Shown one piece after another: positions 44,537-46,565 of a stretch of DNA of 46,565 nt. Below the pieces are notes generated by a model. The model ran no database searches, had not been told where the DNA came from, and saw only the letters and a list, made by a program, of their open reading frames with translations. Origin of the DNA: Bacteroidales bacterium. GTDB taxonomy: Bacteria > Bacteroidota > Bacteroidia > Bacteroidales > P3. Location: contig JAFWQP010000106.1 of assembly GCA_017509045.1 (NCBI GenBank), positions 1 through 46,565 of the forward strand. Direction: 5' to 3'. Numbering within the stretch: position 1 is the stretch's first letter; each line of letters begins with the position of its first letter. Both the position numbers and the translations under genes were made by a program.

Positions 44537-44624
44537 GGAAAGGTGCTCGAGTGGTTGAAGAGGCCCGCCTGGAAAGCGAGTAAGCGTTAAAAGCGCTTCA
44601 AGGGTTCGAATCCCTTCCTTTCCG
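44537..44624 (+). tRNA. tRNA-Ser, anticodon GGA
   Basis: The 88-nt class II tRNA has a 7-bp acceptor stem (GGAAAGG with CCTTTCC at 44617-44623) and discriminator G at 44624. The anticodon GGA is at 44571-44573 in loop CTGGAAA, with one C-A mismatch in the anticodon stem. The long variable arm (TAAGCG...CGCTTC region) is typical of serine tRNAs. The T arm is AGGG-TTCGAAT-CCCT. CCA is not encoded. Confidence 0.96.
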
Positions 44625-45560: not shown

Positions 45561-45568
45561 TATTTTTG
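45561..45568 (+). promoter_or_regulatory. -7 element of the tryptophanase operon
   Basis: TATTTTTG matches TAnnTTTG. The predicted start, around 45575, lies only about 6 nt before the leader-peptide ATG, so the leader peptide would be translated from a nearly leaderless message. Confidence 0.65.
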
Positions 45569-45580
45569 CAATTCCAAAAT

Positions 45581-45673
45581 ATGAATACAAACAGTCTACA
45601 CATAAGCCCTCGTATCCTTTTCTTAAACATTAAGAAAAGAGATGTTTATGACTGTTTTGTGACCATGGATTGA
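45581..45673 (+). CDS. Candidate 30-residue regulatory leader peptide before tryptophanase
   Basis: An ATG at 45581 opens a 31-codon frame ending in TGA 45671-45673. The peptide has SLHISPRILFLNIKKRD in its middle and ends CFVTMD. The start echoes E. coli TnaC (MNILHI) in its Met-Asn and Leu-His-Ile, but there is no Trp, and the TnaC Trp12/Asp16/Pro24 pattern is absent. The stop codon lies in the loop of the following terminator hairpin. That placement, plus the lack of any other function for the segment, is why I call it regulatory. It could be a chance frame; conservation in related genomes would decide. Confidence 0.55.
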   Translation: MNTNSLHISPRILFLNIKKRDVYDCFVTMD

Positions 45674-45701
45674 GCCTGCTCTCCGTGGTCGTTTTATTTT
45701 T
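45617..45701 (+). promoter_or_regulatory. Attenuator: pause-like hairpin and terminator in the tryptophanase leader
   Basis: The first hairpin is CTTTTCTTAA (45617-45626) with TTAAGAAAAG (45630-45639), a perfect 10-bp stem with a 3-nt loop, inside the leader frame. The second is GACCATGG (45661-45668) with CCGTGGTC (45683-45690), 8 bp with one T-G pair and a 14-nt loop, followed by TTTTATTTTT, an intrinsic terminator. A palindromic CCCCTAGGGG follows at 45703-45712. A ribosome held at the leader stop (45671) would cover both arms of the terminator. Confidence 0.65.
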
Positions 45702-45771
45702 ACCCCTAGGGGCAAAAAAGCATATTTTGGCAATCAATTTTTATTAATAATCATTAAAAAATATAATAATT

Positions 45772-46565
45772 ATGGAACTTCCATTTGCAGAAGCGTGGAA
45801 AATCAAAATGGTCGAACCCATTAAGAAATCCACCCGCGAACAGCGCGAAAAATGGCTCGAAGAAGCCCACCAGAACATCTTCATGCTGAAGAGCGACTAC
45901 GTTTACATCGACCTCCTGACCGACTCTGGCACCGGTGCCATGAGCGACCGCCAGTGGAGCGCGATGATGATGGGCGACGAGAGCTACGGCGGCGCCCGCT
46001 CGTTCTATCACATGAAGGACACCATCACCGAGATTACCGGCTTTGACTATGTCATTCCTACCCACCAGGGCCGTGCAGCCGAGAACGTGCTGTTCAGCTA
46101 CCTTGTGAAACCCGGTATGATTGTGCCCGGCAACGCCCACTTCGACACCACCAAGGGCCATATCGAGAGCCGCAAAGCCTTCGCTATCGACGTCACCGTC
46201 CCCGAGGCTTACGACACCCAGCTCGAAGTCCCCTTCAAAGGCAATGTCAGCCTTGAGAAGCTGGAGAAGGTGCTGCAAGAGAACAAAGGCAACGTCCCCT
46301 TCATGGTTCTCACCGTCACCAACAACACCGTCGGCGGCCAGCCCGTCAGCATGAAGAACATCCGCGAGACCTGCGAACTCTGCCACAAATACGGCGTGCC
46401 CGTCAACATCGACAGCGCCCGCTTCATCGAGAACGCCTACTTCATCAAGACCCGCGAGGAAGGCTATGCCGACAAGACCCTGCGCGAGATCTGCAAGGAG
46501 ATGTTCTCCTATGCCGACAGCATGACCATGAGCGCCAAGAAGGACGGCCTCGTGAACATGGGCGG
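45772..46565 (+). CDS. tnaA: Tryptophanase, C-terminus cut by window edge
   Basis: This PLP enzyme cleaves L-tryptophan to indole, pyruvate and ammonia. The 264 visible residues include FIDLLTDSGTGAMS-type block YIDLLTDSGTGAMSDRQW, MMMGDESYGGARSFYH, PTHQGRAAENVLF, NAHFDTTKGHIESR, VTNNTVGGQPVS, and SAKKDGLVNMGG, where the second Lys (about 256) should bind PLP. Tyrosine phenol-lyase is the close alternative. DTTKGHIE is nearer tryptophanase, while the GLVNMGG ending is shared by both in this phylum, so the call is likely but not certain. Its expression is probably set by the attenuator just upstream. Confidence 0.85.
   Translation, partial: MELPFAEAWKIKMVEPIKKSTREQREKWLEEAHQNIFMLKSDYVYIDLLTDSGTGAMSDRQWSAMMMGDESYGGARSFYHMKDTITEITGFDYVIPTHQGRAAENVLFSYLVKPGMIVPGNAHFDTTKGHIESRKAFAIDVTVPEAYDTQLEVPFKGNVSLEKLEKVLQENKGNVPFMVLTVTNNTVGGQPVSMKNIRETCELCHKYGVPVNIDSARFIENAYFIKTREEGYADKTLREICKEMFSYADSMTMSAKKDGLVNMG

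Follow-up and report, generated by a model that had tools for sequence, protein, structure and literature searches.

In the window, by which the whole stretch of 46,565 nucleotides of Bacteroidales DNA analyzed here is meant (contig JAFWQP010000106.1), the tryptophanase gene tnaA is preceded by a short reading frame for a leader peptide, and this leader is conserved across the order Bacteroidales. Since the core of the peptide is conserved in the order and nonsynonymous changes (pN) are much rarer than synonymous ones (pS) in this frame only, it is a coding frame far beyond chance. The conservation of the core, while synonymous sites are near saturation, suggests that the frame probably encodes a ribosome-arrest leader for tryptophanase. 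The explanation favored here, which we consider rather likely, is a regulatory leader of the arrest-peptide kind, with a stall during elongation at the core and tryptophan-induced readthrough into tnaA.

The leader gene and its surroundings

The landmarks named in a preliminary description of this DNA, namely a -7 element, a frame about 12 nt behind it, a perfect 10-bp hairpin and a gap of 98 nt between the stop codon and tryptophanase, were all found in place (Table 1). The -7 element TATTTTTG, which we take to be a -7 box of the Bacteroidota type (consensus TAnnTTTG), is followed after 12 nt by the ATG of the leader at 45581. What had been described as a 31-codon frame consists of 30 codons and the TGA, which occupies positions 45671-45673, upstream of the tnaA start at 45772. 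The peptide ends with the residues MD and, as had been claimed, contains no Trp. The NF053783 match of the tnaA product spans all 264 residues present; its 503 bits fall short of the 750-bit cut-off for the whole protein because the gene is cut by the contig end.

Table 1. Features of the leader region and tnaA in the window
Feature	Position	Strand	Basis and remarks
-7 promoter element TATTTTTG	45561..45568	+	read from the sequence
5' end CCAAAATATG	45574..45583	+	complementary to 45721-45730; clade-specific long-range pairing
Leader peptide ORF MNTNSLHISPRILFLNIKKRDVYDCFVTMD	45581..45673	+	30 codons + TGA; core under strong purifying selection
Long stem over most of the ORF	45592..45654	+	fold; 45592-45596/45650-45654, 45602-45608/45643-45649, cap 45617-45626/45630-45639
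Core F14-L-N-I-K-K-R-D21-V-Y23, proposed arrest motif	45620..45649	+	146 profile-selected leaders
Terminator-like hairpin GACCATGGA..TCCGTGGTC holding the stop	45661..45690	+	fold; base 20 nt past the first base of the D21 codon
U-rich tail TTTTATTTTT	45692..45701	+	sequence; hairpin + tail counted as terminator-like, -15.2 kcal/mol (hairpin-plus-U scan)
CATATTTTGG, partner of the 5' end	45721..45730	+	42-51 nt upstream of tnaA
tnaA, tryptophanase	45772..46565	+	NCBIfam NF053783 tryptophanase TnaA, E 7.7e-151; runs off the contig end

The promoter arrangement is shared by the relatives. A -7 pattern was detected at most 110 nt upstream of the core in all 70 leaders of the window's genus and in 69 of the 76 leaders of a wider set, while the reversed pattern, used as a control, was found in 1/70 and 8/76, respectively. 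In 54 of the 65 genus leaders for which an ATG was found, this codon follows only 8-12 nt after the -7 box, and the transcripts should therefore be nearly leaderless.

The source genome (2.7 Mb in 154 contigs) encodes the leader once according to a protein search; a second, weak match to the leader profile (G000:C136:3002-3055, E 0.03) lies on a contig other than that of the known tnaA. An identical leader is present in the public record CAMZFW010000004.1 (L288), and the remaining named carriers are uncultured Bacteroidales or Bacteroidetes, including one Candidatus Colimorpha merdihippi; by these carriers, the window belongs to the Bacteroidales of gut and rumen. A search of a plasmid collection yielded no match. 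Pfam returned no match for the window leader and just two weak single matches to other families (E 0.14 and 0.21) for 27 genus leaders. The Rfam 15 search of the window revealed no leader match above the gathering score, the only hit being a tRNA gene elsewhere (RF00005, 50.1 bits) at 44537-44624, located ahead of a glycosyltransferase-like gene which in turn precedes the leader; a lenient search at the leader produced two weak opposite-strand matches (E 0.58 and 0.59) that stay well short of the gathering score.

Conserved core and selection on the frame

Statistics on stop codons, hairpins and composition were calculated from 146 leaders, i.e., 151 leaders found in 189 regions minus five duplicates, which include loci found via the peptide; prevalence rests on another set (see below). 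The 146 leaders comprise the 70 genus leaders and the 76 of the wider set, to which two genus members (L149, L151) also belong. They share a core near the C-terminus with the general form [FY]xN[IVL]K-x-R-D-x-[FY]. K18, R20 and D21 (KxRD) are invariant in all 146 profile-selected leaders, an invariance that is partly favored by the selecting profile, and the second residue past Asp is Tyr or Phe in 135. Trp occurs in only three leaders and is absent from the other 143. The peptides usually comprise 20-35 residues, the shortest examples as few as 14 (L208).

Within the genus, the eight core codons gave a pN of 0.049 and a pS of 0.90 (39 distinct sequences). In the wider set pN was 0.17 and pS was saturated (74 distinct sequences). 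As the leaders were chosen by their amino acids, pN is somewhat lowered by the selection, while the saturation of synonymous sites is unaffected. The other two frames revealed a pN equal to or higher than pS, and the eight codons preceding the core are much freer (pN 0.43 and pS 0.77 in the genus). The preliminary description had named two signs that would speak against a leader peptide, a lost frame or synonymous and nonsynonymous changes at equal rates; what was found is a frame kept in 69 of 80 genus regions and a pN well below pS.

Distribution of the leader

In the genus, 87 of 120 genomes contain tnaA, and 80 usable regions upstream of the gene, including that of the window, were obtained, the remainder being cut, at contig ends or unfetched. 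The pattern F-[LIVMF]-[NK]-[IVL]-[KR]-[KR]-[RK]-[DE] was present in a short frame in 69 of these regions. Among the 11 regions without the pattern, L026 and L084 harbor variants (LFQNIKKRDVF and RYINIKKRDIF), L029 passes the later profile, and eight possess the -7 box with no such leader. By eye, the leaderless members L043, L048 and L067 show a different G+C-rich inverted repeat past the -7 box (in L043 GCGGCGGAAGAGTGTTCCGTCGC) and no KxRD frame; this repeat is perhaps another control element.

For the order, 393 genomes were analyzed, 261 of which contain tnaA. A degenerate DNA pattern for FLNIKKRD matched 16 times in the 393 genomes; two matches have Ser for Arg, and of the 14 exact ones 13, the window among them, are located directly upstream of tnaA and one elsewhere. 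Prevalence was determined on 109 loci from 54 families which were chosen by tnaA, have a known geometry and were drawn from the higher-scoring tnaA places listed for the 261 genomes. Several genomes fetched via the peptide pattern were excluded from this set, G095 and G142 were retained, and the set includes one locus from the window's genus as well as three from other members of the family. With a wider profile, the core was detected upstream of tnaA in 76 of the 109 loci and in 42 of the 54 families, bearing out the claim that a leader peptide precedes tryptophanase; as this profile was trained on some of the loci that it scores, it is to be noted that 21 of the 76 positives were outside its training. 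A profile built from the genus only still found the core in 53 loci from 32 families. The thresholds were set to the best score of 436 controls (reverse strand and shuffles), which was 15.1 for the wider and 17.4 for the genus-only profile, while the best score among the 33 negative loci was 8.8 with the wider profile. The negatives cluster by family, with five in f22, four each in f100 and f2, and three each in f113 and f9. Since the leader is absent from 33 of the 109 tnaA loci, it is dispensable. All ten tnaA products that were checked, six from leaderless loci and four from loci with a leader, passed the tryptophanase cut-off, and in those ten a missing leader is thus not explained by tyrosine phenol-lyase.

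In a sample of the phylum, tnaA was present in 138 of 395 genomes. The 29 best-scoring tnaA loci outside the order include two with a diverged leader, both from the same class (VYVLIKERDSF*, L327, score 24.9; KYILIKERDQFT*, L343, score 18.5), and 27 without a leader. An HMM search of the 395 genomes gave matches in 24, including the window's own; judging from its coordinates, the match in G871 is upstream of tnaA. In a named collection, 449 stretches matched a short pattern, and all 37 loci that were confirmed hold tnaA.

The tnaA genes of families f81, f101 and part of f2 are 92-97% identical to that of the window (71-72% in two other f2 genomes), while those of three g7 genomes from the window's own family are only 74-75% identical. 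This higher identity across families suggests that tnaA has been transferred horizontally, with or without the leader.

RNA structures between the promoter and tnaA

The leader RNA of the window folds better than all of 200 dinucleotide shuffles (z = -4.7). It contains the perfect 10-bp hairpin CTTTTCTTAA-ACA-TTAAGAAAAG at 45617-45639, which caps a long stem. In 27 close sequences including the window, 83.0% of the cells of this long stem pair, compared to 80.3 in shuffled data (0/500 as high), and the covariation is 0.173, compared to 0.129 in shuffles (0/500) and 0.077 in the best slid version. The pairs changed on both sides showed no excess over shuffles (195/500 as high). As related sequences can exceed shuffles without any structure, the covariation gives moderate support to the stem. 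Most leaders of the wider set no longer form the outer pairs of the 10-bp hairpin (paired in 32, 31 and 34 of 76), for which reason the peptide and not the RNA looks like the older constraint.

The preliminary description had placed the TGA in the loop of a terminator. The stop is indeed situated within a terminator-like hairpin, at whose inner bulge its T is unpaired while its G and A belong to an apical 3-bp stem, so that there is no clean loop. The hairpin is directly followed by GTTTTATTTTT. A simple terminator scan restricted to loops of 3-8 did not list it, the outer stem enclosing 12 nt, and in most of the 13 nearest subclade members the U-run at this hairpin is missing. Between core and tnaA, 37 of the 70 genus leaders and 16 of the 76 wider-set leaders have a terminator-like hairpin with a U-run, compared to 6.0 and 1.0, respectively, expected from shuffles; a second scan allowing slightly longer hairpins, run without a control, gave 38 and 17. 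In some members, e.g., the window, these hairpins directly follow the core; in others they are located about 40 nt or more beyond it. Due to their enrichment over shuffles, transcription attenuation is likely in many members. The first of the two scans found no terminator-like hairpin in 33 of the 70 leaders of the genus and in 60 of the 76 of the wider set, and thus one readout cannot fit all. For the members without a terminator, Rho-dependent termination is a guess by analogy to Escherichia coli.

A further interaction may connect the 5' end of the transcript with a site upstream of tnaA. In 66 genus sequences, the mean longest match between a leader's own 5' and 3' segments was 6.35, compared to 5.60 (sd 0.14) for swapped partners, and none of 5000 permutations of these related sequences gave a value as high. 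The signal is mainly carried by a clade with CCAAA past the -7 box, in which 25 of 28 sequences have a partner site beginning 43-53 nt ahead of tnaA; the other genus members have no site in common. RNAalifold, applied to 28 relatives from the leader to tnaA, gave almost no consensus as the downstream part aligns badly; subclade alignments show hairpins.

Position of the stop codon and of the downstream hairpin

Counted from the conserved Asp, the stop codon is located at D+5 or D+6 in 107 of the 146 leaders, with a full range from D+2 to D+12. In eleven leaders the aromatic residue at D+2 is the last one, and a single leader stops short of it. Each of the three stop codons occurs (TAG 66, TAA 56, TGA 24). 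TAG is the commonest stop in the genus (43/70), which may be due to its being part of the hairpin sequence that follows. In the window, the conserved residues end at Tyr23, eight codons ahead of the stop, and with nine residues past Asp its leader is at the extreme of the genus, in which eight or nine such residues occur in 6 of 70 leaders.

A strong hairpin (-9 kcal/mol or better) past the core was predicted for 70 of the 146 leaders, namely 50 of the 70 in the genus and 20 of the 76 in the wider set, compared to 15 and 4, respectively, in single shuffles. Counted from the first base of the Asp codon, 35 of the 70 strong hairpins start at 17 to 22 nt and the other half elsewhere, and there is no correlation between the hairpin start and the position of the stop (r = -0.07). 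The stop is away from its usual place at +15/+18 in 21 of the strong cases; 12 of these hairpins, including that of the window and several from close relatives, still start at 17-22. Within a band of 14-28 nt, which in itself favors tightness relative to Asp, the spread of the hairpin starts was 2.8 nt relative to Asp and 5.9 nt relative to the stop in the genus (n=31), and 3.2 and 5.5 nt in the others (n=13). Over all 70 hairpins the two values differ only a little (9.7 and 11.3 nt). The distance seen in toeprints is 15-17 nt, and the spacing of the hairpins would thus fit a ribosome whose P site contains Asp or the residue after it. Since the hairpin start is independent of the stop and half of the hairpins start 17-22 nt from Asp, an elongation stall at the core is favored, for which this comparison of sequences gives moderate support.

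Discussion

According to the explanation favored here, an inducer in the exit tunnel, most likely free L-tryptophan, would cause a ribosome that has just made the core to halt in elongation with about D21-V22-Y23 at the active site. The leading edge of the halted ribosome would be near the base of the downstream hairpin, and the RNA polymerase would continue into tnaA. Without the inducer, the ribosome would reach the nearby stop and leave, and transcription would end at a terminator before tnaA, which in the window would be the hairpin at 45661-45701, while in relatives lacking a U-run termination may perhaps proceed through Rho. The parts of this scheme differ in their probability. That the peptide arrests ribosomes is likely, and the arrest is probably located at the core rather than at the stop. 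Tryptophan is a fairly probable ligand, and for an intrinsic terminator as the readout in the window the balance is just favorable. It speaks against the scheme that half of the strong hairpins start outside the range of 17-22 nt from Asp, and that in the window a ribosome halted at D21-Y23 would touch no more than the edge of the terminator, which does not readily explain how the latter would be blocked.

The preliminary description had suggested that the ribosome stalls at the TGA, as it does in TnaC of E. coli, and directly covers the arms of the terminator. In favor of such a stall, the stop of the window lies within the hairpin, and the clustering of the stops (107 of 146 at D+5 or D+6) implies that termination may matter after all. 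However, the distance from the conserved Asp to the stop varies from 2 to 12 codons, any of the three stop codons is used, the start of the hairpin is independent of the stop, and the late stop of the window is an exception within its genus. Moreover, the conserved residues end eight codons before this stop, the U-run is missing in most of the nearest relatives, and a footprint of a ribosome at the window's stop would cover the 5' arm of the hairpin and, of the 3' arm, no more than the first bases. Because of the variable stop spacing and the independent hairpin position, a stall at the stop was set aside as the main model; we consider it unlikely.

Still less probable is a free microprotein that acts after its release, e.g., on TnaA, and not as a nascent chain. 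The strong conservation of amino acids and the linkage to tnaA would agree with it, yet just about ten residues near the end are kept while the preceding ones are much freer, and some leaders such as L208 have only 14 residues. It may also be asked whether the conserved entity is the RNA, i.e., the hairpin and the fold of the leader, with the peptide as a by-product. Some covariation of this fold is seen in the 27 close sequences, and the F-L and K-K codons are complementary by nature. This reading was nevertheless set aside as very improbable, since the amino acids persist in the wider set although most of its members have lost the outer pairs of the 10-bp hairpin, and since nonsynonymous change is suppressed in this frame only. 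Equally improbable is classical attenuation, in which a scarce charged tRNA is sensed via runs of its codons, as in the trp and his leaders, which are attenuators of amino-acid biosynthesis. A leader ORF followed by terminator-like hairpins is common to both, but the leaders described here contain no run of a cognate codon, and Trp is present in just three of them. What is conserved are residues and not codons: the codons of the conserved Lys and Arg vary, and neither amino acid is obviously connected with the breakdown of tryptophan.

For the sensing of a free metabolite by a ribosome, TnaC is the textbook example. Like TnaC, the Bacteroidales leader is a short peptide encoded upstream of tryptophanase, at a distance of 49 to about 220 nt in the Bacteroidales, with an aromatic residue three positions ahead of an Ile and an N-I pair (WFNID in TnaC, FLNIK here). 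Homology was rejected as hhalign found no relation to a TnaC profile (E 0.27 over three columns), and the likeness is a resemblance only. According to the available text of two reports on the E. coli system, L-Trp is wedged between the 23S rRNA and Trp12, Ile15 and Asp16 of TnaC, with Pro24 in the P site (PMC8429421, PMC10941005); W12, D16, I19 and P24 are given as important residues, and the system uses Rho and the stop codon (PMC8429421). By contrast, the Bacteroidales leaders have no equivalent of Trp12 for the L-Trp pocket. The position of Asp16, four past the aromatic residue, is occupied by Lys in all 146 selected leaders. There is no conserved terminal Pro: the most frequent residues listed for D+4 and D+5 do not include it, and 78 of the leaders end before residue 12 past the aromatic one, where Pro24 is found relative to Trp12 in TnaC. 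What they possess is the conserved block KxRDx[FY], followed within 2-12 codons of Asp by any of the three stops, and the stop does not seem to be the stall site. Since 143 leaders lack Trp, no terminal Pro is conserved and the profiles do not match, the leader is not a member of TnaC; judging from these sequences, it works like TnaC at most.

The SecM, MifM, VemP and Erm leaders are encoded by short upstream ORFs with a conserved arrest motif close to the end; they stall independently of the stop and sense secretion, membrane insertion or antibiotics. The leader described here resembles them in its conserved block near the end of a short upstream ORF, its stall being predicted, but precedes the gene of a catabolic enzyme. 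To our knowledge, its core is not among the known arrest motifs. An arrest motif of the +X+ type is known from macrolide-dependent stalling, and the K-x-R of the core may be analogous to it; +X+ does not account for the whole core since Asp and the following aromatic residue are also conserved.

The preliminary description had expected the sensing residues to be new, and this is in line with the literature searched (for most searches the best 10-20 of up to 826 results, most subscription papers and all preprints lying outside), which showed no description of the core motif or of a tryptophanase leader or arrest peptide of Bacteroidales. The available text of PMC7366714 reports short ORFs resembling leader peptides in long 5' UTRs of Bacteroides thetaiotaomicron; in its main text, as far as available, neither a word beginning with tryptoph nor BT_1492 occurs. 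The accessible part of PMC8537960 contains tnaC solely as an exclusion term, and a term search of that of PMC10219788 gave no tryptophanase-leader terms. Transposases near tnaA in Porphyromonas gingivalis are described in PMC13305171, whose available text has no word beginning with leader.

It is conceivable, at a little less than even chance, that the Bacteroidales evolved a nascent-peptide tryptophan sensor of their own, independently of TnaC, with the motif [FY]xNIKxRDx[FY], an arrest in elongation and not in termination, and different readouts (intrinsic terminators or others) by family. If this is true, a second leader for the same enzyme, using other residues and apparently another stall point, would indicate that the sensing of metabolites in the ribosomal tunnel arises repeatedly, and it would provide a ready comparison for the recognition of tryptophan by the tunnel. 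A regulator of this kind for indole production in Bacteroidales is not described in the literature searched; the leader would suggest how the production of indole, a signal between host and microbes in the gut, is controlled in these bacteria.
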